Positions 2,576 through 17,589 of a stretch of DNA of 32,749 nucleotides are shown one piece after another (the first letter of the stretch is position 1; every line of letters begins with the position of its first letter). Source of the stretch: Thermoanaerobaculia bacterium (GTDB lineage Bacteria > Acidobacteriota > Thermoanaerobaculia > Multivoradales > JAHZIX01). A program made the position numbers and the translations under genes. The notes below the pieces were generated by a model. That model saw only the letters and a list, made by a program, of their open reading frames with translations, was not told the origin of the DNA and made no database searches. The DNA is taken from positions 1-32,749 of the forward strand of contig JALXFE010000037.1 in assembly GCA_027069135.1 (NCBI GenBank), in the 5' to 3' direction.

Positions 2576-3466
2576 TCAGGCGCCGGAGCTCTTCAGGCGC
2601 TGGGCCAGGAGCTTCCACTCGGGTACCTCCTGGCCTTTGACACTGGGCCAGAGGACTTCCAATCTCTCGAGCTGGCGTGCCAGGCGGCGCCAGTCGGTGG
2701 CGTTCTTGACGGCGCTGCCGGAGGCGGTCTTCCAGCCTCGGCGGCGCCAGCCGACGAGCCACTCGGTGGCACCGTTGCGCAGGTAATCCGAAGCGGTGTA
2801 GACGGCAACCCTGCCTCGAGCCGGAAGGGTTTCGAGCAGTCCCGCCGCCGCCAGGATGTCCAATTGATTGGCAGACGCCCCGGGATAGGCCCCCTGGATC
2901 ACCTCTTCGTCTTCCCCTTGGCGGACCACTGCGGCCCAGCCTCCCCGGCGACTGCCGCTGACTTTGAGAAAAATCTCGCACTCGACGGTCGGCCTGGTGG
3001 GAGCTTCCGAAGGGACCGAGCTCCCACCTCCCGGGCTGCGGATCGCCGAGGTGGCCAGTTCATCGGCCCGTTCATTGTAGAGATTGCCCGAATGCCCTTT
3101 GACCCACTCCCAAGCGATCTCATGGCGCTGGCTCGCGGCGGCCAGGCGCTTCCAGAGGTCAGCGTTGAGAACCGGATTTCCATCTTTTTTGCGCCAGCCC
3201 CGCCGCTTCCAGGCGGCGAGCCATTGGGTGATGCCCTTGCGCAGGTATTGGGAGTCCGTGAAGAGATCCACCCGGCAGGGATCGCGGAGACTCTCGAGAG
3301 CCTGGATCGCCGCCGTCAGCTCCATGCGATTGTTGGTGGTCGCCGCCTCGCCGCCGGAAAGCTCCCGGGTCTTCCGGGTCCGGGGATCGACCAGGACGGC
3401 TCCCCAACCTCCCGGCCCGGGGTTCGGGTCGGAGCCACCGTCGGTATAGATGATGATGTGATCCAC
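2576..3466 (-). CDS. rnhA: Tandem-domain ribonuclease HI with an inactive second domain
   Basis: RNase HI cleaves the RNA strand of RNA/DNA hybrids in the cytoplasm, for example Okazaki primers and R-loops. This 296-aa protein is about twice the usual length. Residues 1-142 are a canonical catalytic domain: D9 (YTDGG), E49 (NNRMEL), D71 (FTDSQY), H125 (KGHSGN) and D135 (NERADEL), with a basic handle ([16 protein letters not shown]). A Pro/Ser linker (143-160) leads to a second RNase H fold (161-296). That domain keeps a near-copy of the handle ([16 protein letters not shown]), but the catalytic positions read S170, D203, A225 and Q279, and the last Asp is missing. The GTG start is chosen because GAGGGAGG precedes it by 8 nt across a run of seven T. 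It starts 20 nt after the stop of the PP2C gene, so it is probably the last gene of that operon. The second domain probably binds hybrid without cutting (inference). Confidence 0.92.
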
Positions 3467-3485: not shown

Positions 3486-5915
3486 TCAATCTTCGTGACG
3501 ACCGGCGCGATCCGGCCCCGTCGGAGCCGAGCCTTCACAACGAATGACGATAAGGGTCAGATCATCGTGGACCGGAGCCTGTCCGCAGAAAGCTCGGACA
3601 TCTGCCAACACGTGATCCAGAGCTTCCTGGGCCGCCATTCCGTCCGTCTGCCCGACGATTTCTTCCAGGCGGTCCAGGCCATACTCCTCGCGGTTCTCAT
3701 CCATCGCCTCAGAGATGCCGTCGGTATAGACGAAGAGCGCGTCCCCGGGCTCGAGGAACACCTCTTCGTCTTCCAGAATCAGAGAGAAGGTCGAGGACTT
3801 CACCGCTCCGGCGGCCAATCCCTTGGGCAGCAGGGCGACCGTTTCCCCAAGGGTGGGCCGCCGCCAGAGGACGGAGTTGTGACCGGCCCGAGCGTGGATG
3901 AGCCTGCCGTTTGCAGGATCTAAGAGGCCGTACCAAAGGGTCACGAAGATATCCCGGTCGGTCTCGCGGTAGAGGCCCTCATTGACCGCCGAGAGAACCT
4001 CCGAGGGTTTCTCCAGATATTCCGTCGCCGCCAGCAGCAATCCTTTCGTCAGCGTCATGAAGAGCGAAGCCACCATTCCCTTGCCGGAGACATCTCCCTG
4101 GGAAATGGCCCAACGATCTCCGATGGGGACGAAGTCGTAGAGGTCGCCGCCGACCTCCTGGGCGGGTTGACATCGGGCGGCGAGGCTCCAGCCCGGAATG
4201 GTCGGGGGGTGGGCCGGGAGCATTCGTGCCTGGGCTTCCCGGGCGACCTGGAGCTGAGCCCGGATCTGTTCCCGTTGGGCTCGGTGCCGAGGAGTCAGAG
4301 CCAACGATTCCGGGCTCAGGAGTCCCTCCGGAAACCGGTCGGCGATCCGGGCCAGCCCCCAACACCCGGCCGCCAACACCGCACAAGCCAAGGCGCCGGA
4401 AAACATCAGGGGTCCGGGTTGAATCGCCAAGCTGGCGCTGCGCAGGGCCGCACCGAAGCCGTAGGAGGTCACAAGAACCGCCAAGAGGCCCCAGCGATGG
4501 AAGATCTGTTCCAAGAAGAATCCCACGACGAGGGCTGCCAGGACGAGACCTGAGGAATCTCCCTGAAGCGGCAACTCTTCGACCAGCAGAAAAGCTGCCC
4601 CGAAGATCGTCAGCCCCCGGGCCAACCGCTCCCACGGCAGAAGATGGCGCAGCCAGGGTGCCAACATGCCGAAAGCGGCGATGGTGCCCAAAGACAGCCG
4701 TGGCGCCAAGGCGATCAGGAAGGGCCACCGGCCCGCGGCGGCCTCGGGGCTGCCCCCGAGCAGTTGGAGATCCCGCCCCAGGACCACCGCGACCAAGGTG
4801 AGGACCAAGGCTAGGGAGGGCCCCAAAGCCAGGCCGACGGCCGTGGATCGCAAGATCGGTCGACGGCGCCAAGTTCCCGCCAAGGCCGTTTCCAAGGGGG
4901 CGATGGCGGTGGGCAGGGCTCGGCGGGCCACCGCACAGCCAGCTCCGAAGAAAAGCAGGGCCCCGACGCTGCGATAGAGCACCGGGTCGAAGAGGGCCCC
5001 GACCCAGGTGCCGATGGCGCCGCCGTCGAATACCCGCTGTCCAAAGGTCAGAATCACCCCGACCCAACCGAGCATCGCGGCGAGGACTCCCAGGGTCAGA
5101 ATCCTGCGGTGGGGATGGAAGAAGCGGCGGCTCTGCACGAGATAAAGAACAGCCGCCAGGAACGCCGCCAGGACGAGGAACGCTCCAAAATCCTCTCGAT
5201 CGCTGGAAAAGCCCCGATCCTCCTCGATCTCACGGTGGCGGCGCACCCGCACTACGTCGGCCCCGGAAAGAGTCACCTCGAGCTCTTCGGAAGGCAAGGC
5301 CTCTCCTTTGGGCCCTCGGTCCGTCGCCTCGTCGCCGAGCTGCCAGCCAAGACGCCAGCGTCCCATGCCACGATCCTCGACCGTGGGATCCCCCAGGGCC
5401 CGACTTCGAGGGACCGAGACCATCTCGAGGGCCACCAAGGACTCGAGGGCCAAGGTCTCAGCGGCGGCGGACTGAAGTTCCTCGGAAGAAGACTTCGAGG
5501 AATCCCTCCGAAGATCCAAAGACAGGATCTTGCCGGCCCCGTCGAGGGTGCCGTAGACCTGGGCGTCGTCCTCCCTCGATTGCAGCACCACCTCCAACGA
5601 GAGCGCGGAAACCGAGCGCCCGGGGAACTCTCGCCCTCGAACCTTGGCATCGCGCCACCAGAAGGCGACCGCGATGTCCTGCCGACCCCGGACCCGAGCC
5701 CTGAAACCTTCGGTTTCGAGGCCGACGGCGGCGGCGGCCCTTCGGACCCGCTCCACGGCTCTGCCCCGGGTCTCCGTCGCCCTCCAAGCTCCCGCTGTGT
5801 CCCAGCGTTGGACCGCAAGAGCGAGCAAGCCCCACGAAACGAGGAGCAAGACCACCAGCCGAAGGGGTGATCCGCTCGAGGCGACACCGAGAGGGGAAAA
5901 ACTCCTAGGCCTCAC
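3486..5915 (-). CDS. Membrane-bound PP2C/SpoIIE-type protein phosphatase (intact active site)
   Basis: Predicted Ser/Thr phosphoprotein phosphatase of the RsbU/SpoIIE class; relatives dephosphorylate STAS anti-anti-sigma proteins. Length is 809 aa. One N-terminal membrane segment (about 18-36) is followed by a probably extracytoplasmic region to about 240, then a block of about eight hydrophobic segments (243-525), a coiled-coil-like linker (about 545-565) and the C-terminal PP2C domain (570-795). The metal-site aspartates are all present: D591 (GGDLYDF), D608 (QGDVSGKG), D732 (YTDGISEA) and D784/D785 (HDDLTLI). The GTG start overlaps the upstream TGA (GTGA) and has GAGGAG 8 nt before it. The open frame extends further upstream, but that part only shadows the preceding gene. 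It is translationally coupled to a similar but catalytically degraded protein. The membrane part could be a sensor; its ligand is unknown. Confidence 0.88.
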
Positions 5916-8422
5916 GGGGAGCTCTCCTCGACCTGGAGCCAGACCACGGTGCCCGGAGTGACTCCCTTCTTGCGCAGCACATCCAACACCTCTTGGGCAT
6001 CCATAGGCTTCCGTCGTTTCAGCGCTTTGAGGGTGCGACGTCTCTCGTGGTCGTCCAGTCCTTGGCCAAAGACCAGAAACAAAGCGATGTCCCCGGCCTC
6101 GAGTTGAACCACCGGGGCCGCCTCGGTGGCCGGGTCGGCCCTCGTGCCGCGAGGATCCGACGCCGCCAGAATCTCTTCCAACCCTCCCGTCGCCCGACGC
6201 ACCAGAACCCACACCCCTCCCAGATCCGACGCTAGCCGAAGGGTGCGATCCTCCGGCTGATACACGCCGTAGACGAGGGAGATCTCGGCAGAATCCTGGA
6301 TCAACTCATCCAGGTGCCGTCGCAGCTTGCGCCACGCCTCGACCGGGTCCAAGCCTCGATCGGAATAGGAGAGAAGGAATCCCTTCGCCAAAGTCATACC
6401 CAGCGCCGCGGCCAAGCCCTGCCGTCCGAAGTCTGCCGACACCACCGCCAGACTCCCGTCGGGCCGCGGGAAGAAATCGTAATAATCCCCTTCCGCCGCC
6501 TCCCCGGAGGAGCAACAGGCGCTGAGACGCACCCCTTCCACCTCCGGCGGCTGGGCCGGCAGCAAGCGCGAACGTGCCTGCTGGGCAGCGCTGAGCTCCG
6601 CTGACAGCGCCACCCGCTCGAACATGTTGTTGGCATACCCCGGCCGCACCTCCACCGCCGAGGCCTCCCGACCGTAGCGAGCGATCAACGCCGCAAGGCC
6701 CAAGGCACCCGCGAGGCCCAACGCGGTAATGGTGGCCGGGCCGCGCAAGGCCTCGGCGGGCTGGTGTAGGAAGAGCAAGATCGAGAAGCCCAAATGGGCC
6801 AAGAGGAAGGTCCAAAAGCCGGCCATCAGGTCGATCGCGAAGAAAGGCACCAGAAACGCCGCCACCCAGACCCCGGCCGCCAGAACGCTGGGAAAGACCG
6901 GCAACCGCATCCAGACGTGCGGCAGCTGGAGACAGACGAGCCACAGGAAGAGGACCAGGACGGGCAAGGTCCGCCAACGCGACGCCGTCCACCGGCGCAG
7001 AAAGGAAAGGGGCGCCATCAGGCCTAGGGTGCTGTAGGGAACGAGAACCGCCAGAGCCTGGGCCAGACCCGATTGGAAGGGGTGAACGAAGAGAAGACGG
7101 CGCACCGAAAGATCCGGTCCCCACTCCGGATGCCCGAGGCCTGGGAGATACAGCAGGAGTTGCGCCAGAACCACCCAGGCAGCTCCTGCCCCACCGACGA
7201 GGAATGAGTAGGCCGGGCCCCGGCTCAGCCACCGGCCGGCGAGCACGGTATCGAGAGGTAAAAGCCGAGCCGGAAAGATCTCCCGGACATCCCCTTCGCA
7301 ACCGGACCACACCGCACCGAGAAGAAGGGCCAGGGGGAGGACACTGGCAGCGGCCGTGATGGTGATCACCGTGATCGCCAGCAGACCGCTCGAGAACTCA
7401 TCATCCAACCCCGAGACCAGGTGGCTACTCTCCAAGATGAAAAATAGGGCGATACCGACCAGCAGGGCCAAGGTCACCGCCAGGAGCAAGGTCCTCACGT
7501 GGGAAACCTCGGACTCCCGGAATCGCACCCCATAGCGCCACAGGCCCCAGAACAGCATGACGGTGGAAGCGAAGACGAGGACGGCAAGACTGCCGAAACG
7601 TAGAAGGAGGCTCGCATCGCCGCGCTGCAAATGGGCCTCGGCAAAATCCGGATCCACCGTCGCCCGAAAACCCCAGCCGGTGATTTCACCGTCCTTGGAT
7701 TGGGTCACCGCGGCCAGAGTCAGCTCGGGCAAACCCTGGAGGTTCACCATCCAGAAGCGTTGTCCGGGCGCTTCTTCCCAGGAGTCCGCAAGCCGGTCCC
7801 CGGCGCCCGGGGCCTCCTCCTTAAGGCCATCACCGCTCGCATCCGGAGAGGCAGGTTCATCGGACGCGAGTGCTTCTTCCTCCTCTTGCGGTTCGCCGGG
7901 ATCGACTCTCGGTGCAAGCTCCAGCCCCTCCGCCCGCTCGGGGCCCACCCAAGCGACGAGGAATGCCCGTTCCACCCCCTCTTGCGCCGAACCCTCCGGA
8001 GAAAAGCCAGAGTCAGCATCCTCGGCGCCCGGCAGGCTCATCCCCAAGACCCGACCGTCCGGGGCCAGCCAAACCGTGGCGTCACCGGTTCCGGTACGGG
8101 CCGGAAACTTCAACTTCAAGCGAAACGGCGGGGCCAGACGATGGATCTCGGCGACGTCTTCCGGACTTTGCTCGGCATGGAGACGGAGGTAGCGTTCGAG
8201 GGCATCGTCGACCTCGGCGTCGAGACGGAACTCCTCCTCGTCGACCTTCACTCCATGGCTCGCCAAGCTGCGCCGCGCGATCTCGGCGGCACCGTCACGG
8301 TCATAGGCCAGACCGACCCGGGCTGCGGGCTCGACGATCGGCAGCAACCAACCCGCGGCGACGAAGGCCAGCGGCGAGAAAACAAATAGCGCCTTGCGGA
8401 GACTCTCGGTGCCGAAGCTCAA
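5912..8422 (-). CDS. Membrane protein with degenerate PP2C/SpoIIE domain (pseudophosphatase)
   Basis: 836 aa, with the same plan as its downstream neighbour: N-terminal membrane segment (about 11-29), a region to about 270 that is probably outside the membrane and includes a very acidic stretch (about 174-218), roughly eight membrane segments (272-585), and a C-terminal PP2C-like domain (605-832). The first two metal-site aspartates are kept: D646 (EGDYYDF) and D664 (SADFGRQG). The YTDG motif is replaced by VFGQG (784-788) and the final DD by P823-G824, so normal two-metal catalysis is unlikely. Both proteins share a cytosolic-loop motif of the form PL(D/E)T-LAG-W. TTG start at 8422, with GAGGA about 9 nt upstream; initiation is less certain than the fold. 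It is the first gene of the operon. A likely role is a regulatory partner or sensor for the active phosphatase (inference). Confidence 0.82.
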   Translation of the reverse strand: MSFGTESLRKALFVFSPLAFVAAGWLLPIVEPAARVGLAYDRDGAAEIARRSLASHGVKVDEEEFRLDAEVDDALERYLRLHAEQSPEDVAEIHRLAPPFRLKLKFPARTGTGDATVWLAPDGRVLGMSLPGAEDADSGFSPEGSAQEGVERAFLVAWVGPERAEGLELAPRVDPGEPQEEEEALASDEPASPDASGDGLKEEAPGAGDRLADSWEEAPGQRFWMVNLQGLPELTLAAVTQSKDGEITGWGFRATVDPDFAEAHLQRGDASLLLRFGSLAVLVFASTVMLFWGLWRYGVRFRESEVSHVRTLLLAVTLALLVGIALFFILESSHLVSGLDDEFSSGLLAITVITITAAASVLPLALLLGAVWSGCEGDVREIFPARLLPLDTVLAGRWLSRGPAYSFLVGGAGAAWVVLAQLLLYLPGLGHPEWGPDLSVRRLLFVHPFQSGLAQALAVLVPYSTLGLMAPLSFLRRWTASRWRTLPVLVLFLWLVCLQLPHVWMRLPVFPSVLAAGVWVAAFLVPFFAIDLMAGFWTFLLAHLGFSILLFLHQPAEALRGPATITALGLAGALGLAALIARYGREASAVEVRPGYANNMFERVALSAELSAAQQARSRLLPAQPPEVEGVRLSACCSSGEAAEGDYYDFFPRPDGSLAVVSADFGRQGLAAALGMTLAKGFLLSYSDRGLDPVEAWRKLRRHLDELIQDSAEISLVYGVYQPEDRTLRLASDLGGVWVLVRRATGGLEEILAASDPRGTRADPATEAAPVVQLEAGDIALFLVFGQGLDDHERRRTLKALKRRKPMDAQEVLDVLRKKGVTPGTVVWLQVEESSP

Positions 8423-8850
8423 ACTCGGATGTCCTCAGGAGTTGTTGGAATCTGATTCTACTGTGCCACAGGCCAACGTGCCCTCTCCTAAAGCTCTACG
8501 CCGGCCCCCGGGGCCAAGTTACAGAATTGCCCGTCCTGATTCGGATCCTCGATTCTCTCGTGGTTCGCGGCTACGATAGCCCCAGGAGGCCAGAATGACG
8601 ACTGTCGGTACCCGGACCTGAAAGACAGACTCTCCCGGCTACATCCACCGCGCGGAGATCGGCGAGGCTCCTTTCCGGGACTTCTGCGGCGATTCCTTTC
8701 GTCGCCAGTGACCGGCGCCTCCTCGAGGCGGCCGAAGGTGAGGGTTTCGAGTGCTTCAATCCCGCCTGGTTGACAAAAGGGTCGGGCCGGGAGATCAAAT
8801 CCCGCCCAACCGCTATACTCACGCCCAGGCGAATTGCCAGGGAGGTCCTG
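8423..8850. other. Divergent control region between the two phosphatase-containing operons
   Basis: A 428 bp gap separating the leftward phosphatase operon from the rightward STAS/kinase/phosphatase operon. I see no full gene. It contains an eight-codon reading frame with a perfect AGGAGG five nt upstream (ATG 8595, TGA 8619-8621), a dyad at 8784-8807 and a TATACT at 8814-8819. The many overlapping frames here have no recognisable protein features. Confidence 0.6.
8784..8819 (+). promoter_or_regulatory. Dyad symmetry plus -10-like box upstream of the STAS gene
   Basis: GGGCCGGGA (8784-8792) and TCCCGCCC (8800-8807) form a near-perfect dyad around a GATCAAA loop. TATACT (8814-8819) follows and resembles a -10 box, about 30 bp before the STAS start codon. 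No good -35 stands 16-18 bp before it, because that space is occupied by the dyad. The dyad may be an operator of an activator-dependent promoter. A TTGACA at 8770-8775 is 38 bp from TATACT, too far to be its -35. Confidence 0.35.
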
Positions 8851-9213
8851 ATGGCGGAGAATTTTTCGATCGAGGCGACGGACGAGGGAGATCTGACGAC
8901 GGTTGCGCTGGGCGGATATCTGGATGCCCACACGGCGCCGGAGTTCGAGGCGACCCTTCAAGAAAGAATCGATGCCGGGCGGGTGCGGATCGTCGTCGAT
9001 TGCGGCGCCTTGGAGTACATTTCTTCCGCTGGATTGGGGGTCTTCATGGGTTTCATCGAGGATCTTCGAGATGCCGGCGGCGACCTCAAGATCTCTGGTC
9101 TGATCCCCAAAGTACGGGAGGTCTTCGAGCTCTTGGGCTTCGATGCCCTATTTGAGATCTACGACGACCGAGCGGCGGCGGCAGGAAGCTTCGCCTCGGC
9201 GGCGGCGGGTTAG
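8851..9213 (+). CDS. STAS-domain anti-anti-sigma factor (RsbV/SpoIIAA-like)
   Basis: 120-aa single STAS domain. In partner switching the unphosphorylated form binds the anti-sigma kinase and frees its target; the kinase phosphorylates it on Ser and a PP2C phosphatase reverses this. The key loop reads DCGALEYISSAGLGVF, giving S58/S59 as phosphoacceptor candidates. ATG 8851 is chosen because GGGAGG lies 5 nt upstream and the protein begins like its family (MAENFSIEA). The frame is open further upstream, but that extension is not conserved-looking and crosses the promoter region. A short low-complexity Ala/Gly tail follows the domain. It is the first gene of a compact operon with its kinase (9 nt downstream) and a phosphatase. 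Confidence 0.93.
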   Translation: MAENFSIEATDEGDLTTVALGGYLDAHTAPEFEATLQERIDAGRVRIVVDCGALEYISSAGLGVFMGFIEDLRDAGGDLKISGLIPKVREVFELLGFDALFEIYDDRAAAAGSFASAAAG

Positions 9214-9222
9214 GAGGACCTC

Positions 9223-9657
9223 ATGGACGTCCTGGAACAGACCTTCACCCTCCACGTGCCCTCCTCGACCAAGAATCTGGTCATGATCCGTGATTTCGTC
9301 AACCGGGTGGCGGAGCAGGCCGGCCTTGAAGAATCGAATCGCAGCAAGATCGAGCTCGCCGTGGACGAAGCCTGCTGCAACGTCATCGAACACGCCTACG
9401 GCAACGACGTCAGTAAAGAGATCACCGTGCGGGCGACCTTCGACGGTGACGCCGTGCGGATTTCCGTCATCGATTCCGGTGCTGGCTTTGCGCCGGACGA
9501 GGTTCCCCAGGAAGAGCTCCGGGAACTGATCCGACAGCGGCGTACCGGTGGCCTCGGCATGCGCCTCATCAAGACCCTCATGGACGAAGTCCGCTACGAG
9601 ATCGAGCCAGGCCGCCGCAACGAGCTCCACATGGTCAAGAAGGTCCGCCAGGGATGA
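9223..9657 (+). CDS. HATPase anti-sigma factor / serine kinase (RsbW/SpoIIAB-like)
   Basis: 144 aa, GHKL ATPase fold of the HATPase_c_2 type. The N box reads ELAVDEACCNVIEHAY (catalytic Glu about 49, Mg-binding Asn 53), the G1 box is DSGAGF (D84) and the G2 box is GGLGMRLI (109-116). Such proteins bind either a sigma factor (or another output protein) or the dephosphorylated STAS partner, and phosphorylate the latter. AGGAGG precedes the ATG and overlaps the STAS stop region, and the gene's own TGA overlaps the next ATG (ATGA). Together these indicate a tightly coupled operon. No sigma factor is adjacent, so the protein restrained by this kinase is unknown. Confidence 0.93.
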   Translation: MDVLEQTFTLHVPSSTKNLVMIRDFVNRVAEQAGLEESNRSKIELAVDEACCNVIEHAYGNDVSKEITVRATFDGDAVRISVIDSGAGFAPDEVPQEELRELIRQRRTGGLGMRLIKTLMDEVRYEIEPGRRNELHMVKKVRQG

Positions 9658-11345
9658 CACCGTCGGAGGTGCCCCAGACCTCCGGGGGTCGTTCCGGGAG
9701 ACTGGCGGCGGGTTCTCTCGAAGCCCTCCTGGAAAATGCCCGCCTTCTGCATTCTTCCCTCGAGCTAGAAGACCTTCTCCGTTCCCTGCTGCGCTCCGTC
9801 ATGGGCCGGCTGGTCGTGACCCGCGGCCTGTTGGCTCTGATCGAAGGAGACCCTTCCACCTCGAAGGTTGAAACCGTCGCCGTGAGCCGCGGTTTTAGGG
9901 ACCTACCCGTCGGCAGCCTTTTCGATGCGGAGCATTGTCGGACCCTCGGAGCAGAGCACCTCCTGCCTATCGGAGACCCCCACCATCCCGTCGGTCATCT
10001 GGCGTTGGGCCGCCCCATCAAGGGCGAACTCGCGGACCAGGATCTGGAATTTCTCGAAGCCCTCCTGGGAATCGCTGCCGGAGCCATCGCCAACGCGCGA
10101 GCCCACCAACAGGCCCGGGCCCTCAATCGACAACTGGATCAGCGGGTACAGCAGTTGCGCACCCTCCTCGACCTGGGACGCAGCCTGACCTCGACCCTCG
10201 AGGCCTCCCAGGTAGCCCAGGCTCTCGGCCTGACCTTGGCCGGTCAATGGCTTCTGCGACGCTACGCCGTCGTCGCCTGGAATGGAGATGCTTCGCCGGT
10301 ACAACGGCTCAAAGGGATGAAAATTCCGGCAGCGGCAGAGATTCGCGAAGAGCTCGGCGCCCTCGCCGGGCCGGCGGCCATCGAGGAGCTGCCTCAAGGC
10401 GCCCTCCGCTCCGCCTTGGAGGCTCAAGAAGCCGAGCTGGTCGTGCCGCTGCTCTCCGGAGACAAAGTCGTCGGCTTGGTCGTCCTGGGAGCTCCCGCCG
10501 GACAGCGGACCTTCGAGGCCGGAGACCGGGACTTCTTGGCCGGCCTCGCCGCCCAAGCCGTGGTCGCCTTCGAGAACGCCTGGTACTTCGAAGAGACCCT
10601 CCAACGGGAGAAGATGGAACGGGATCTGGCCTTGGCCGGAGAGATCCAACAACGTCTTTTCCCCACGGAGCTGCCCCAGCCTACGGGCTTCGGCTTGGCC
10701 GCTCACAACCGGCCGGCTTCCCAGGTGGGAGGCGATTACTACGACGTACTCTCCGTTTCCTCCGGGGAAAACCAGCGGTACCTCATCTGCGTCGCCGACA
10801 TCTCCGGCAAGGGGATGGCGGCCTCCCTGCTGATGAGTAATCTGCAGGCCACCTTGCGGGCCTTGCTCGATACCGAGCCGGATTTGGCCGGCCTCGTCCT
10901 GCGTACCAGCCGACTGCTCTACGCCACGACTCCGGCCAGCAAATATGCCACCGCCTTCTTTCTTCTACTGGACCCTCGAACCGGCGCCTGCCGCTACGTC
11001 AACGCCGGCCACAACGAGGGATTGGTCGTCCGCCGGGACGGCACCATCGAAGAGATGACCGCCACCGGCTTCCCGGTAGGGCTCATGGGCATCGGGGAGT
11101 ACCGAGCCGAAGAATTTCGATTGGAGCCCGGGGATTGCGTCGCCCTCTACTCCGACGGGGTCAACGAGGCCAACGACCAGGATGAGCAAGAATTCGGCAT
11201 GGACCGCCTGAAAGCCGCCTTGGTCAAGCGCCGAAAGAAGAGCGCCCAGGACATCGTCGACGGCCTCTTTGAAGAAGTCGACGCCTTCGCCACCGGCGCC
11301 CCCCAATACGACGACATCACCGCCCTCGTCGCCAAGCGCTTCTAG
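9654..11345 (+). CDS. GAF-GAF-PP2C (RsbU-type) serine phosphatase
   Basis: 563-aa soluble phosphatase, the third component of the partner-switching module. Residues 25-150 and 175-312 look like two GAF-type sensory domains joined by a helical, coiled-coil-like linker (145-172). A second helical linker (about 310-335, ending AGEIQQRLFP) leads into the PP2C/SpoIIE domain. All metal-site aspartates are present: D361 (GGDYYDV), D382 (VADISGKG), D501 (YSDGVNEA) and D553 (YDDITALV). The ATG overlaps the kinase TGA by 4 nt. The expected substrate is the phosphorylated STAS protein two genes upstream. The GAF domains could bind a small ligand or act as dimer interfaces; I see no diagnostic ligand residue. 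Confidence 0.92.
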   Translation: MTPSEVPQTSGGRSGRLAAGSLEALLENARLLHSSLELEDLLRSLLRSVMGRLVVTRGLLALIEGDPSTSKVETVAVSRGFRDLPVGSLFDAEHCRTLGAEHLLPIGDPHHPVGHLALGRPIKGELADQDLEFLEALLGIAAGAIANARAHQQARALNRQLDQRVQQLRTLLDLGRSLTSTLEASQVAQALGLTLAGQWLLRRYAVVAWNGDASPVQRLKGMKIPAAAEIREELGALAGPAAIEELPQGALRSALEAQEAELVVPLLSGDKVVGLVVLGAPAGQRTFEAGDRDFLAGLAAQAVVAFENAWYFEETLQREKMERDLALAGEIQQRLFPTELPQPTGFGLAAHNRPASQVGGDYYDVLSVSSGENQRYLICVADISGKGMAASLLMSNLQATLRALLDTEPDLAGLVLRTSRLLYATTPASKYATAFFLLLDPRTGACRYVNAGHNEGLVVRRDGTIEEMTATGFPVGLMGIGEYRAEEFRLEPGDCVALYSDGVNEANDQDEQEFGMDRLKAALVKRRKKSAQDIVDGLFEEVDAFATGAPQYDDITALVAKRF

Positions 11346-11624: not shown

Positions 11625-14150
11625 ATGTCGAAGCAGGGCGACTTCAGGTTGGGAGATTGGTGGATCCGTCCGTTGCGCAACGAACTGGACCGGGGGGAGC
11701 AGACCCACAGCGTCGAGGCCCGCTCCATGGAGGTTCTCGTCTGCCTGGCGCGACATGCGCCGAAGGTTGTCACCAAGGAAGAGCTTCTCGCCGATGTCTG
11801 GCAGAATTCCCCCTTCATAGGGGACGAAGTGATCAGCCATGCCGTCTGGGAGCTCCGAAAGGCTCTCGGAGATTCGGCAAAGAGTCCTACCTATATTCAG
11901 ACGATCCCCCGCAAAGGCTATCGGCTACTGGTCGAGGTGCTCCACCCCAAAGGCTCGCCGGAACCCATCGTCGGGGCTCGCATCGACCATTTCGATCTCG
12001 AGGAAGAGATCGGGCGGGGTTCCATGGGTGTTGTCTACCGGGCCCATGACCGGCACCTGGACCGAACCGTCGCCCTGAAATTTCTCGCGGCGGAGCTCAC
12101 GCGGAATCCTTCAGCGGTCCGCCGCTTCGAACGCGAAGCACACCTCGCCGCATCCCTCGATCACCCCAATCTCGCGACGGTTCACGGCATCGGCGAGGCC
12201 TCTAATGGGCAGCGCTACCTGGTCACCTCCCACTATCCCGCCGGTAGCCTCAGGGATCGTCTGGCCCAGGGCCCTATCTCCCCGTCGGAAGCCTTGGACC
12301 TGGCCCGACAGATCGCCGCCGGCCTCCGAGCAGCTCATCGCCGTGACATCGTCCACCGGGATATCAAACCCGCCAATCTGCTTCTCGACGAGCACGGCAC
12401 CCTCAAGATCGCTGATTTCGGCATCGCCAAGCTCATCGGCGCGACGGACCTGACCCGCACCGGCGCCTCCCTCGGTACTCCGGCGTACAAGTCCCCCGAG
12501 CAAAGCCAGGGCCTTCCCGTCGATCATCGTACCGACCTATGGTCCCTGGGGGTCGTTCTCTTCGAGCTCCTCACCGGTCGCCGTCCCTTCGACGGCGAAT
12601 ACGACCAGGCCGTCGTCCACTCGATCCTCGCTCTCGACCCCAAGCCTGAAACCGATCTGGCCGGTAGGCCTTTGCCGGAACCTCTCCGCCGCATCATTGC
12701 CAAGGCCATGGCGAAGGACCCGGAGGAGAGATACCAAAGTGCTGAAGAGATATTGGGAGATCTGGGCGGAGCTGCCCGGGAACCAGCCCGCCTTCTCGCC
12801 AGCCCTGAAAGCCGGCCCAGGAGGAACCGGTCCCGCTTCGCTGTCGGTGCCGTCGCAGCGACGCTACTCTTGGCAGGGCTCACCTGGCGCTCGACCTCCA
12901 AGCCTCCGGTCTCGCCGGAGAGGCTAAACGCCGCCGGTCACTTCCAGCATGCACAGATTCTCCTCATCCGAGGCAATGACTCGGGGAATCTGCAAGCGGT
13001 CGCCGAGCAACTGGCTACGGCGAGAAGACTCGACGGGGAATGGCCGGATCTGATGGCATTTTCTGCCTTCGTCACAGCGGAGCGCTTCGGAGCTTCGGGG
13101 GACGAAAAGGACGAGGCGTTGGCCCGAAGCTTGCTGGACAGGGCCCGCCGGTTGGACCCAGAGAACCCCCTCGTCTTTGCCGCCGCGGGCCGGTTGATGA
13201 TTCTGGACCGGGGCTATGCCGAGGCCGAACGGGCAGCGAGGGCGGGAATCGAAGCCTGGCCGACCTGCAAGCCTTCAGAGAGCTGTGATCTGAACTACAT
13301 GATCCTGGGCCAAGCCCTGTGGGCTCAGGGGAACTTTGAACGGGCCCTGGGAGTCTTCGAGCGAGGAACCCAGGTAGGATTCGGCCGGATACGGTGTCGA
13401 CTCGAAAAGGCGCACTTCTACGGTCTGGCGGATGATTTTCCCCGTGCTGTCCTCGAGTACAGATCCGTCCTCGCCCTCGACCGAGAGCAGAGCACGGCCT
13501 TGAACGATCTGGCGATCCTCTACCGAGCCAATAATCAGCCGGAGAAAGCTGAGCCTTTGTTGCAAAGGTTGTTCACCAAGACCGGTGACCCCAAAGTGGG
13601 GATCAACCGGGGGAACCTGCTCTACGACCAGCACCGCTGGAAGGATGCCTACAACACCTACGAGGAAGCCTTTCGCCTTGCGCCAACGGGGAGTCTCGTT
13701 GCTGCTGCCGCCGCGGTCGCCCTGGGGGACGTTCGCTTAGAAACGCATTTCGCGGAGGGGGGCGGGCCTTGGTACGAACCGCCCGAGGGCGCTCTCCTAT
13801 GGTTTCGACGGGCCCTTGCCATGTATGACGGACAAATGGACGGCGCGCATCTCAGCCTGAGAGACCTGGGCCGCCGCGCCGTATGTCTTGCCAAGCTGAG
13901 CCGCCGGGATGAGGCCGCATCTGCTCTCGGAGCCGTCCTGCCCCGGTACCGGGAGCTCCCGGCCCTCCTCGACTACGCCGCTCGGATCGCGGCTCTGGCC
14001 GGCGACGACGTAGCGCTCTTCGCCGCCGCCCGCCGAGCCCGTGCTGAAGGACGCCCCCGGAACAACCTGAAGGACGATGCCGCCTTCATCGGCTACCGCA
14101 AGAACCAGGACTACCTCCGCCTCATCGGAGGAGGATCCCTGGAGCGCTGA
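11625..14150 (+). CDS. Winged-helix / Ser-Thr protein kinase / TM / TPR fusion protein
   Basis: 841 aa. Residues 5-105 are an OmpR/CadC-type winged helix (TKEELLADVW, then HAVWELRKALGD, and the wing YIQTIPRKGYRLL). Residues 122-380 are a complete Hanks-type kinase: glycine loop IGRGSMGVVY, K152 (VALKFL), HRD 244-246 (IVHRDIKPANLLL), DFG 264-266 and GTPAYKSPEQ. An Arg-rich stretch and one membrane segment (about 404-422) follow, then a C-terminal TPR-like region (about 430-841) predicted to lie outside the cytoplasm. CadC-like regulators place a wHTH directly before the TM segment; here a kinase sits between them. The start codon has no clear Shine-Dalgarno; a TATTCT six bases upstream would suit a leaderless transcript. 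The phosphorylation target and DNA site are unknown. Confidence 0.9.
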   Translation: MSKQGDFRLGDWWIRPLRNELDRGEQTHSVEARSMEVLVCLARHAPKVVTKEELLADVWQNSPFIGDEVISHAVWELRKALGDSAKSPTYIQTIPRKGYRLLVEVLHPKGSPEPIVGARIDHFDLEEEIGRGSMGVVYRAHDRHLDRTVALKFLAAELTRNPSAVRRFEREAHLAASLDHPNLATVHGIGEASNGQRYLVTSHYPAGSLRDRLAQGPISPSEALDLARQIAAGLRAAHRRDIVHRDIKPANLLLDEHGTLKIADFGIAKLIGATDLTRTGASLGTPAYKSPEQSQGLPVDHRTDLWSLGVVLFELLTGRRPFDGEYDQAVVHSILALDPKPETDLAGRPLPEPLRRIIAKAMAKDPEERYQSAEEILGDLGGAAREPARLLASPESRPRRNRSRFAVGAVAATLLLAGLTWRSTSKPPVSPERLNAAGHFQHAQILLIRGNDSGNLQAVAEQLATARRLDGEWPDLMAFSAFVTAERFGASGDEKDEALARSLLDRARRLDPENPLVFAAAGRLMILDRGYAEAERAARAGIEAWPTCKPSESCDLNYMILGQALWAQGNFERALGVFERGTQVGFGRIRCRLEKAHFYGLADDFPRAVLEYRSVLALDREQSTALNDLAILYRANNQPEKAEPLLQRLFTKTGDPKVGINRGNLLYDQHRWKDAYNTYEEAFRLAPTGSLVAAAAAVALGDVRLETHFAEGGGPWYEPPEGALLWFRRALAMYDGQMDGAHLSLRDLGRRAVCLAKLSRRDEAASALGAVLPRYRELPALLDYAARIAALAGDDVALFAAARRARAEGRPRNNLKDDAAFIGYRKNQDYLRLIGGGSLER

Positions 14151-14169: not shown

Positions 14170-16431
14170 CTAGCCGCCGCCGCCGGGCCCGACCCGCAAG
14201 GGCTCCCCTTCCGGCTGAGGGCCGCTACCCCGAGAATCAGCGCCCGCCTCTCCCGGCTGGCGGCCATCCGAGGCATCGCTGTCGCGCCTCCCACCTCTAC
14301 CACCAGGTCGGCGGCGCAGCTCCCGGAAGCTACTGCGGGGCTCAAAGACCGGCCGCAGGGAAAATCGTAGATCGTCGGCGAGGGGTTCCAAATCCGAAGC
14401 CAGGGCAAATTCACCGAAAGGAGAGCCCGGCGTATCTCCAGCAAAGATCAAGCCCACCGCGAAGTAGACGTTGCGGACCTTTGTATTTTCGGTCTTTTCT
14501 TTCTCTTTCCTGGTCTTCTCGGAATCGATACCGTTCTCTTCCAACCAGGAGCCGAGAAGCTCGTCGAGGATTTCCCTCAATGCCCCCGTATCCAGAGGTG
14601 AGGTGCGAGGAACGAGCTTGGCGGCGCGGGCGCCGGCTTTCAACCTCCCTACATCGATCTCTCTCGAAACCAACTCTTGAAACTCTTGGAAAAGACCTGC
14701 CGCTCCGGGGATATAGCTCCCCTCTTGTCTCAGAAAGTCTCTGCATTCCTCCGCTAAGGCTTCGACCTCATCCCCGGCTCTCTTGACACAGTTTCGGAAT
14801 CTATCCCACGGCCCGCCGGGTCTACTTGAATGGATCACCGCCCTTGAAATATCCCCCAGATTTCTACGATCTTCTTGCAACTCATCCAGGCTGTAGCTGG
14901 TGAGCACCAGGGATCCCGAGTCGCCCATCTGGCTGACGTCGTCTCCGGCGAAGAGGGGAGCGATGTGGAATTGGTTCTCGAAATGGCGGATGAATCCTCC
15001 GCCATAGTCGATATTTGTGGCCAGGCAGACCCCGTCGACGAAGCCTTCGGTGAAGCCCGTGGTGCGGCCCCATTTGCGGATTTCGAGATTGAGCTCCGGC
15101 CGCTGGTATCCCGAGACGGGGTGCCACATGCCCAAGATCTCGCCGCTGGCGAAATTGCGCCCGCCGTCGAGCTCCGCCAAAGCGGCGTCTCCGAGCTCCC
15201 CAAGATGCCATCGCTTCAGGTGGGCGATGGTGTCTTTTTCCGTTCCGCCATCGAAAATCGCCGGCTGAAAGGTGGGCTGCCCCACCTGGGCCCGGCCGTT
15301 GCCAGCCAGGACATGCCAGTTGCTCAGAACGCAGGGGCTGCCGTCGGTGCGGTCCCAGACGATGGTACCGAGGGTTCCGGCCCGGCCGCCCAAGGTGCCG
15401 ATGCTGACACCACCGACCAGAGGATTGACCCGGCCGCGGCCGGTCAGGAGCTGCTCGCCGTCATCGAGCTCCCGGGCCGTCTCGAGGGGCCCTACGAAGA
15501 CCCCGTCGGCGTCATCCCCTCCCGAATGCTGCACCGAGGGAAAGTATCGGGCATCGATGATGTCCAAGGGAACCCCGCAGATGGCCAGGCGACAATAGGG
15601 CCTCGGCTCGCCACTGCAGTCGTGCTCTCTCGGTTTGCTAGATCCGAAGTCGATCCAGCAGCTCTCTTCGCGACAGAGCCAAGAGACGTGGTGGGAGAGA
15701 TCCTCCTGAGTCACCCCGGGAATCGGGTACGAGGAGCAGTGATGATGCCGGCCCATTCTGCGAATCCAATCGTCGAGGCAATCAGTCGGAAGTCCGTGGT
15801 ACTTTGATAACTCCCTACAGACCTCCTTGCGGTCGATCCGCCCTGCAGGGCCGGTGGCTTCATCGAAGCATTTCGAGACCGTCTCGCAATCGAAGGCATA
15901 CATCGGGTTGGTGAAATCCGGGAGCCCTTCCCGATGCAGGTAGCGCAAGGGATGCTTCTTGGCGACATGAACGCGGATCGAAAGGAGGTTGATGAACCGT
16001 TTCCTGCGCTCCCAGACGGCAAAACCCACATCAACGGCGCTGACGTCCTTGAATCGCAGCAGTTGGCGCCGCAGCCTGGCATGAACCCGCTTGGCATGTT
16101 CGACGGCGCAACGGCCCCGGAGCTTGATTCCAAGACGAGGATCCGGGCCAGGAATCCAGCAGAATTCGAATCCTTGGCACGAGGATCGCCCTGCGGCTCG
16201 CCGGAGCTTTTTCCTGTAACCATTCCATCTCGAGAGACTCTCCTTTTCTTGCCTTGAGAGGTCCCTTTCCGCAAACTCTCCTGCCTTTTCTATCGACTCT
16301 TCTACCTCGCGACCGATCTCTTCCCCGGACCCGACTCCCTCGCGCCACATCAAACAATCCAGTGGGACGCAGACCTCGAATTTTCTCGGGTCCAGGCATC
16401 TGTTGAGTTGCTCCTTCTTGTGGCGACTCAT
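14170..16431 (-). CDS. Trypsin-fold serine peptidase with Cys/His-rich N-terminal region and split barrel
   Basis: 753 aa, no signal peptide, so probably cytoplasmic. The peptidase part starts near 340 (GGVSIGTLGG): H373 (LSNWHVLAG), D415 (LGDAALAEL) and S505 (QMGDSGSLV) form a plausible chymotrypsin-type triad. The strand usually found just after the catalytic Ser (AVGLIFAGD, 658-666) is displaced by about 140 residues of mainly helical, charged sequence (513-654). The N-terminal 340 residues include a VDVGFAV...LSIRVHVAKK segment (133-159), a pattern I associate with bacterial NAL1-like S1 peptidases, and many Cys/His clusters (for example RHHHC, 228-232). The C-terminal 50 residues are Arg/Gly-rich and disordered-looking, ending in four Gly. 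ATG 16431 is chosen for GGGAG about 8 nt upstream; the open frame further upstream has no family features. It is divergent from a sigma factor and convergent with the kinase gene, 19 nt away. Confidence 0.82.
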   Translation of the reverse strand: MSRHKKEQLNRCLDPRKFEVCVPLDCLMWREGVGSGEEIGREVEESIEKAGEFAERDLSRQEKESLSRWNGYRKKLRRAAGRSSCQGFEFCWIPGPDPRLGIKLRGRCAVEHAKRVHARLRRQLLRFKDVSAVDVGFAVWERRKRFINLLSIRVHVAKKHPLRYLHREGLPDFTNPMYAFDCETVSKCFDEATGPAGRIDRKEVCRELSKYHGLPTDCLDDWIRRMGRHHHCSSYPIPGVTQEDLSHHVSWLCREESCWIDFGSSKPREHDCSGEPRPYCRLAICGVPLDIIDARYFPSVQHSGGDDADGVFVGPLETARELDDGEQLLTGRGRVNPLVGGVSIGTLGGRAGTLGTIVWDRTDGSPCVLSNWHVLAGNGRAQVGQPTFQPAIFDGGTEKDTIAHLKRWHLGELGDAALAELDGGRNFASGEILGMWHPVSGYQRPELNLEIRKWGRTTGFTEGFVDGVCLATNIDYGGGFIRHFENQFHIAPLFAGDDVSQMGDSGSLVLTSYSLDELQEDRRNLGDISRAVIHSSRPGGPWDRFRNCVKRAGDEVEALAEECRDFLRQEGSYIPGAAGLFQEFQELVSREIDVGRLKAGARAAKLVPRTSPLDTGALREILDELLGSWLEENGIDSEKTRKEKEKTENTKVRNVYFAVGLIFAGDTPGSPFGEFALASDLEPLADDLRFSLRPVFEPRSSFRELRRRPGGRGGRRDSDASDGRQPGEAGADSRGSGPQPEGEPLRVGPGGGG

Positions 16432-16818
16432 AGTTCTTCTCCCTTCATTTGAGTTTCTTCGACGAGACACTCTCTGCCAAGAAGAGGCGAGGTTCGCCAA
16501 GAAACCAATGGACGGCGGCCACCGAAAATGTAGCCCCCATTGGGGCCACCCATCCTGTGAACGCGCTCCGGTAATTCTGTGCAAGTTCTGACAAAGAAGT
16601 CCCCGGTGTCTCCCTATCCGGGACGGACACGTCCGAGAAGTTTCACAGACTTTGGAAAGAGTAGCCACAGGACTCGCGACGGTACCGGGGCCTAGGCTGG
16701 CTACAAATCCTGGAGACGAGACTTGAATCCATCGTCTCTCGAGACCCGGAGCGACGTTGGAATCCCCCTAAGCGGGGGGGCGCCAGAAGACAAGATCCCC
16801 AGACCGGAGGTGGTCCCC
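16432..16818. other. Divergent region between the peptidase and the sigma factor
   Basis: A 387 bp gap. It contains inverted repeats CCAATGG (16505-16511) / CCATTGG (16537-16543) and GGACG-gaca-CGTCC (16621-16634), plus a CCCCC-taagc-GGGGG hairpin (16764-16778) just before the chosen sigma start. An in-frame TTG at 16723 with GGAG 7 nt upstream is an alternative sigma start, which would add 32 residues. No clear -35/-10 pair was found. No other gene. Confidence 0.5.
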
Positions 16819-17589
16819 ATGCCCAAACAATCCCCCGATCCCTATTCACTTTTCACCAAGCAATTTCCGAATATCGAACACGTCCTGGTCCGTATCGCCC
16901 GGCGGCAGCACCTCTCGGCAGAGGAAAGAGGTGAGTTCCGCTCTTTTGTCTATCGGCGGTTGCTCGCCGACGACTGTTCCTGTCTGCACAGATTTCAGGG
17001 AAAGAGCCGCTGGAAGACATTTCTGACGGTGGTGATCCAACGCCTATTCATGGATTTTCGGAACCACCGCTGGGGGCGCTGGCGCCCCTCGGCCAGGGCT
17101 CGGAGACGGGGTGTCGGCGGAATCCTCCTGGAGCGGCTGGTCTCTCGGGACGGTTTCGGGGTCGAGGAAGCCATTTCGATCCTGCGGGAAAATCACGGCG
17201 TTCGGATTCCGTCGCACGAGTTGCGCCACTGGGCGGCGCAGCTCCCTCAGCGGGGTCGACCGGCTTGGGTCAACGACAGCTGCTTGCAGAACTATTGCGC
17301 CCCAGAGAGGACCGACGCCGAGTTGCTCGACCACGAGCGAGGGGAGCAAGCGTGCACGATCTACCGTCGCCTCGAACGCGTGCTCTCTTCTCTGCCCGCC
17401 CAGGATCGGCTCGTCCTGAAGATGCGCTACGAGGACGATCTACGGATCAATGAGATCGCTCGCCTCCTCGCCCGTCCTCAAAAGGCGCTCTATCGTGAAA
17501 TCAAGGCCATCCAGGCTCAAATGAAACGGTCTCTCGGCGAAATGGGCTGTCACCCGAAGGAAGTCGCCGAAGTTCTCGCCGGTCGCTAA
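16819..17589 (+). CDS. Sigma-70 family (ECF-like) RNA polymerase sigma factor with inter-domain insert
   Basis: 256 aa. Sigma2-like region (about 35-95) with the core-binding and -10-recognition pattern CLHRFQGKSRWKTFLTVVIQ and LFMDFRNHRWGRWRP; sigma4-like region (about 185-245) with LPAQDRLVLKMRYEDDL and an HTH (INEIARLLARPQKALYREIK). Between them is an insert of about 70 residues containing EEAISILRENHGVRIPSHELR, a feature I associate with sigma factors common in Acidobacteriota and Myxococcota. ATG 16819 is chosen for CGGAGG 8 nt upstream; the TTG at 16723 is possible. Divergent from the peptidase, which may be its target or regulator (inference); convergent with the DinB-like gene, 12 nt away. 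Confidence 0.85.
   Translation: MPKQSPDPYSLFTKQFPNIEHVLVRIARRQHLSAEERGEFRSFVYRRLLADDCSCLHRFQGKSRWKTFLTVVIQRLFMDFRNHRWGRWRPSARARRRGVGGILLERLVSRDGFGVEEAISILRENHGVRIPSHELRHWAAQLPQRGRPAWVNDSCLQNYCAPERTDAELLDHERGEQACTIYRRLERVLSSLPAQDRLVLKMRYEDDLRINEIARLLARPQKALYREIKAIQAQMKRSLGEMGCHPKEVAEVLAGR

Follow-up and report, generated by a model that had tools for sequence, protein, structure and literature searches.

The stretch of 32,749 nucleotides analysed here (the window), derived from a Thermoanaerobaculia bacterium, encodes two membrane proteins arranged head to tail on the minus strand, which we refer to as UP (upstream gene) and DN (downstream gene). A preceding sequence-only reading had described them as proteins of the same architecture encoded with a 4-nt overlap, and its coordinates proved correct in the open reading frames, the translations and the shared GTGA (Table 1). 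The TTG start of UP is preceded by TGAGGA. UP and DN share a layout of a first transmembrane helix (TM1), an ectodomain of 200–240 aa, a block of about nine TM helices, a helical linker and a C-terminal SpoIIE-type PP2C domain, and they align with 32% identity over 225 columns comprising linker and PP2C domain (E = 7e-18). The Pfam family PF07228 was matched by DN with 148.1 bits (E = 3.8e-43, curated cut-off 25) and by UP with 45.8 bits (E = 8.8e-12), which likewise exceeds the cut-off, while the NCBIfam SpoIIE model matched neither protein. The ectodomain of UP (about 240 aa), the loss of its AGHN motif and the adjoining partner-switch module had all been absent from the sequence-only reading. 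On the minus strand, positions 2576–3466 encode an RNase HI-like protein in which two RNase_H stretches were recognised; judged by eye, the one at the C-terminus looks degenerate. Next to DN, each of the four genomes from the window's family encodes a protein of about 300 aa.

Table 1 Features of the UP-DN locus and the adjoining module, with positions in the window.
Feature	Position	Strand	Evidence
UP, membrane pseudophosphatase gene (predicted), 836 aa, TTG start	5912..8422	-	ORF/translation; SpoIIE domain E = 8.8e-12; degenerate motifs
UP TM1, residues 12-30	8333..8389	-	hydropathy scan
UP extracytoplasmic domain, residues 31-271	7610..8332	-	hydropathy; mixed alpha/beta in predicted model
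UP multi-TM block, about 9 helices, residues 272-581	6680..7609	-	hydropathy; no Pfam family
UP helical linker, residues 588-626, EVRPxYA...ERxALSAE...LLPxxPP	6545..6661	-	UP-copy alignment; helix in predicted model
UP pseudo-PP2C domain, residues 627-836	5915..6544	-	Pfam SpoIIE match; predicted model; structural matches
UP altered motif 2, ADFGRQG instead of GDVSGKG, D664 kept	6416..6436	-	motif alignment
UP site of lost TDG: VFG, residues 784-786	6065..6073	-	motif alignment
GTGA stop/start overlap UP/DN (putative translational coupling)	5912..5915	-	sequence; exact 4-nt overlap in 8/16 adjacent pairs, window's included
DN, membrane PP2C phosphatase gene, 809 aa, GTG start, catalytic residues intact	3486..5915	-	translation; SpoIIE domain E = 3.8e-43; motifs
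DN extracytoplasmic domain, residues 36-241	5193..5810	-	hydropathy; predicted model
DN multi-TM block, residues 242-530	4326..5192	-	hydropathy
DN helical linker, residues 535-572	4200..4313	-	linker alignment; predicted model
DN PP2C domain, residues 573-793, D591/D608/D732/D784/785 present	3537..4199	-	Pfam SpoIIE; motifs
STAS anti-sigma antagonist (RsbV-like), likely substrate, ISSAGLGV phospho-Ser site	8845..9213	+	Pfam STAS E = 4.4e-20; motif in 7/7 copies checked
HATPase_c_2 anti-sigma/kinase (RsbW-like)	9223..9657	+	E = 1.2e-32
Soluble GAF-PP2C phosphatase (second RsbU-like input)	9654..11345	+	SpoIIE E = 3.5e-48, GAF

In Bacillus subtilis SpoIIE, Mn1 is coordinated by D628, D746 and D795 (PMC8080068, PMC3517971), and a putative Mn2 site involves D610, D628 and G629 (PMC3517971, PMC8080068). 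DN carries the motifs GGD (D591), DVSGKG (D608), AGHN, TDG (D732) and HDD (D784/D785), and the equivalents of SpoIIE D610, D628, D746 and D795, namely D591, D608, D732 and D784, are all present, in agreement with the earlier claim that DN has every PP2C aspartate. By its PF07228 match and full metal-ligand set, DN is classed as a SpoIIE/RsbU-type PPM phosphatase. The UP protein of the window retains GD (D646) and ADFG (D664) only; TDG is replaced by VFG and the final DD by PG, the AGHN motif is also gone and the C-terminal region is partly deleted. The loss of TDG and DD with retention of the first two aspartates had been recognised from the letters and was reproduced in the motif alignment. 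Thus, the Mn2-type ligands are left in UP, two of the three Mn1 ligands are absent, and the protein lacks the complete metal-ligand set of an active SpoIIE/RsbU-type phosphatase. The other four strong SpoIIE domains of the source genome, all encoded outside the window, keep GGD, TDG and DD. As the same degenerate state is found in all four genomes of the window's family although their UP proteins share only 36–47% identity, it is not a product of chance. UP is consequently predicted, from the missing ligands, to be an inactive PPM pseudophosphatase that retains the fold.

Retention of the fold, as previously proposed, is backed by the PF07228 score and by an AlphaFold model in which the PP2C fold of UP is kept, with block pLDDT values mostly of 70–85 in that region. 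The model matched structures of RssB, Rv1364c RsbU, SpoIIE and RsbX with target-normalised TM-scores of up to 0.70 (RssB/SpoIIE PP2C), RssB of Pseudomonas aeruginosa being the top match. By sequence, three solved structures were matched by the PP2C domain of DN and none by UP. A hydropathy scan counted ten helices in UP, eight in DN and mostly eight to ten in full-length relatives, and the even numbers would place the N-terminus and the PP2C domain of each protein in the cytoplasm. SpoIIE was the only significant Pfam domain, and neither the TM block nor the ectodomain of UP or DN gave a significant Pfam match, so the suggested comparison with known sensor families returned no catalogued Pfam family. 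A sub-threshold DUF4901/PepSY-like match was seen in the ectodomain of one related single protein, and 7TMR-DISM was rejected as the membrane domain for want of Pfam support. In full-length models of UP and DN built with six sequences, the TM part was of low confidence (mean pLDDT 59), and the membrane fold was therefore left uninterpreted.

Profile searches were run over the order, class and phylum of the window, comprising 943 genome searches in overlapping sets. While a contig scan with the UP sequence alone gave no match, the family alignment as query recovered two relatives from the window's family, Acidobacteria bacterium HKST-UBA06 and Deltaproteobacteria bacterium P_S1_bin.14. The pair is present in four of four genomes of this family, UP being degenerate at the same motifs and DN intact in each, and it recurs in three further families belonging to two other classes (f26, two genomes; f80, nine; f37, two), which rejects a single-genome artefact. 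Altogether, these four families of the phylum yielded 17 UP copies. In 16 cases UP lies immediately 5' of DN, with an exact 4-nt overlap at eight of the 16 adjacent junctions. In the remaining genome (G500), UP and DN lie on different contigs (loci L138/L125) and UP is followed by another gene, which by eye resembles a glycoside hydrolase; in a further genome (G408), DN reaches the end of its contig, and the rest of the genome yielded no UP. The sequence-only reading had named inconsistent pairing and UP homologues with intact catalytic residues as observations that would speak against it; pairing is consistent, and all 17 UP copies are degenerate. At least one Mn1 ligand (the equivalents of SpoIIE D628, D746 or D795) is missing in 17 of 17 UP copies, none of which has an AGH motif, and DN is intact in 18 of 18. 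The lesions themselves differ by lineage. TDG and DD are lost in the window's family; outside it, 12 of 13 UP copies carry glutamate for the motif-2 aspartate within a conserved AEGG-xGL signature and mostly keep TDG and DD, and the thirteenth (G499) keeps the motif-2 aspartate and has SEG for TDG and SD for DD. As for co-evolution, which had also been proposed as a check, a mirror-tree correlation of r = 0.94 was obtained, a value that shared descent alone would be expected to give. The UP-DN pair is thus old and conserved.

UP is under purifying selection, with values similar to those of DN. Within one genus (g208), dN/dS was 0.09–0.15 for UP and 0.12–0.19 for DN, and 0.08–0.15 and 0.05–0.09, respectively, for the PP2C domain alone, in each case with synonymous sites near saturation. 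Comparison of regional conservation over the same 12 genomes revealed that the membrane part is more conserved in UP than in DN (0.278 vs. 0.214; difference +0.065, CI 0.043 to 0.085), and the linker, which is the best-conserved part of UP with 58% mean identity, showed a trend in the same direction (0.58 vs. 0.46; +0.12, CI −0.005 to 0.244). In contrast, conservation of the PP2C domain is 0.31 in UP vs. 0.53 in DN. Within this domain the motif-2/switch-helix segment is best kept in UP, and the stretch that runs from the FVT motif across the flap to TDG is least conserved (−0.27 vs. DN, CI −0.34 to −0.20), reaching 0.40 of the DN value. The overall distance among UP proteins is only 1.11 times that of DN. 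These results amount to a division of labour, with UP constrained as a membrane and linker protein and DN as an enzyme; the conserved regions of UP are those expected of a sensor and partner.

In a maximum-likelihood tree, UP (100/100) and DN (100/99) form sister clades (93/87), with single proteins of the same layout outside. When the PP2C domain was left out, UP (99) and DN (98) were still recovered as separate clades, and the singles remained separate too; catalytic decay therefore does not account for the split. Most simply, this can be read as a single tandem duplication that preceded the separation of the families, or else as spread of the pair as a unit, and the patchy distribution is compatible with both. 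In 22 single proteins from the order and class, the motifs are intact throughout. Intact multi-TM PP2C proteins with this layout that are encoded singly and carry a DVAGHGVSSG motif (L042–L063, e.g. L042:4630-7089) are widespread in the order and class; their sensor part has no Pfam name, and one genome of the window's family has a copy of this type of its own (G003_C845). Such DVAGHG-type proteins from the order were considered as intact UP orthologues, which would have spoken against the sequence-only reading, and rejected, as they fall outside the UP + DN clade.

Divergently oriented to the pair, the window encodes a module of the Rsb type in which a STAS antagonist, a HATPase_c_2 kinase and a PP2C phosphatase are co-encoded (Table 1). 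Each of the four genomes from the window's family shows this divergent arrangement of pair and STAS module, which in one case was reconstructed from two contigs. In three other genomes (G156, G359 and G555) UP, DN, STAS, HATPase and GAF-PP2C genes form a single co-directional run, and two more agree with this order (G304, whose contig breaks off within the HATPase gene, and G537, across two contigs); no STAS gene adjoins the pair in most f80 genomes. This linkage suggests that the STAS protein is likely the substrate of DN, and that two phosphatase inputs, one membrane-bound and one cytoplasmic, act on a single node. The module contains no sigma factor gene; a gene for a sigma-70 region 4 protein (16723–17589, plus strand) is not adjacent and may be an output or part of an unrelated ECF-like system. 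Opposite to it, a large protein without Pfam match is encoded at 14170–16668 on the minus strand. Downstream of the GAF-PP2C gene lies a gene for a winged-helix, Ser/Thr kinase and TPR protein (11625–14150, plus strand), and similar kinases were also seen near the module at L108 and L109.

For RsbU, activation has been described as a crossing of linker helices by which the PP2C domains dimerise via switch helices alpha1/alpha2, a mechanism proposed to be general (PMC12143880). We favour a UP-DN heterodimer with UP as the signal-reading subunit that sets the position of the DN switch, and assign a probability of roughly 0.6 to this reading. The data show the pairing, the conserved loss of motifs in UP, the integrity of DN, selection, the regional pattern of conservation and synteny, whereas the dimer, the direction of control, STAS as substrate, the signal and the output are inferred. 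Both genes would go back to a membrane sensor-phosphatase with TM1, ectodomain, about nine TM helices, linker and PP2C domain that was duplicated in tandem long ago, after which DN would have stayed an enzyme and UP, having lost catalysis, would have been kept as a regulatory subunit. The two proteins would associate through their membrane domains and linker helices, their PP2C domains packing via the switch helices in the manner of the RsbU dimer. UP would be the main reader of a signal at the ectodomain or TM block, and this signal would set the linker and switch of DN and hence its metal binding and activity; DN would then dephosphorylate the adjoining STAS protein, freeing the putative output held by the RsbW-like kinase, with the GAF-PP2C protein as a second, cytoplasmic input to the same STAS/kinase node. 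More tentatively, and at somewhat less than even odds, the pair may represent a partner-switching membrane receptor of two subunits that occurs in several classes of a single phylum. In this receptor the dead subunit would be the main sensor and the allosteric partner of the live effector. The receptor would have arisen once, when a sensor-phosphatase that worked as a homodimer was duplicated in tandem, and different lineages would have completed the loss of catalysis in the sensor subunit by different mutations.

Alternatively, UP could act as an inactive PPM adaptor that, without pairing with DN, binds the STAS protein, the RsbW-like protein or another output upon a membrane signal, leaving DN to form a homodimer. 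Escherichia coli RssB offers a precedent, as its PPM domain lost activity, kept linker and switch helices and became an adaptor (PMC12143880), and both the top structural match of UP and the separate contigs of UP and DN in G500 would fit such a role. However, in SpoIIE and RsbU the surface to which STAS proteins dock includes the flap (PMC11418112), and this element falls in the least conserved region of UP, which makes STAS binding by UP unlikely and argues against a STAS-binding decoy, while strict adjacency and the stop/start overlaps in half of the pairs favour co-assembly. We therefore regard the adaptor role as unlikely, yet as the most serious competitor to the heterodimer.

It is less probable still that UP remains a phosphatase with altered metal use or narrower specificity and that the pair comprises two enzymes. 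The kept PP2C fold of the predicted model is compatible with this, and residual activity is conceivable outside the window's family, because 12 of 13 copies there have glutamate in place of the motif-2 aspartate and TDG and DD are mostly kept. Against it stand the absence of two of three Mn1 ligands in the UP protein of the window, the loss of AGH in all copies, the poor flap/TDG conservation and the example of TAB1 and PHLPP2, which also lost metal ligands and are inactive (PMC12002173). That UP is a decaying copy en route to loss is very improbable: PP2C motifs are indeed lost, and differently by lineage, but the reading frame is kept in every copy found and the gene is retained in four families, with dN/dS at about 0.1, an overall distance close to that of DN and a membrane part more conserved than that of DN. 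A pseudogene was accordingly rejected on the basis of dN/dS and conservation.

Linker-driven dimers have been proposed as a general answer to the question of how transmembrane signals switch PPM phosphatases (PMC12143880). A natural dead/live pair would divide the roles, with signal reading and dimer contacts in one chain and catalysis in the other, and activation through the dimer interface could be tested in it without confusion with catalysis; the genome with UP and DN on separate contigs could show whether UP works without co-expression. Inactive PPM domains are already known from RssB, TAB1 and PHLPP, and a membrane-sensor case would, if the reading holds, join this small set. In the open-licence full texts searched we found no conserved, co-encoded bacterial membrane dead/live PPM pair tied to partner switching; to this extent, the earlier statement that no pair with this multi-TM domain has been described stands, although the multi-TM domain itself is not unique to the pair, as intact single proteins with this layout occur both within the order of the window and in other parts of the phylum.

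Compared with known systems, the locus resembles RsbU, RsbP and SpoIIE of B. subtilis in the PF07228 PP2C domain, whose metal ligands recur in DN, in the switch helices and in the adjoining STAS and HATPase_c_2 genes, and RsbU and RsbP also in the helical linker of both proteins. It differs in that a multi-TM sensor and ectodomain take the place of the RsbU N-terminal domain, and in that a second, catalytically degraded copy is co-encoded. Rv1364c, an RsbU-RsbW fusion of Mycobacterium tuberculosis, and SiaA of P. aeruginosa are likewise partner-switching PP2C phosphatases and appear among the structural matches, but both are single phosphatases with different sensor domains. UP shares with E. 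coli RssB a SpoIIE-like PPM domain that has lost catalysis and in which linker and switch helices are important (PMC12143880); unlike UP, a membrane protein beside its live paralogue, RssB is soluble, carries a receiver domain and serves as adaptor for sigma-S degradation. The eukaryotic pseudophosphatases TAB1 and PHLPP1/2 have also partly lost their metal ligands while keeping the fold, and TAB1, which is inactive and binds a single ion at M2 (PMC12002173), matches the UP protein of the window in having kept M2-type and lost M1 ligands, although these proteins belong to unrelated architectures and pathways and form no dead/live operon pair of the kind described here.
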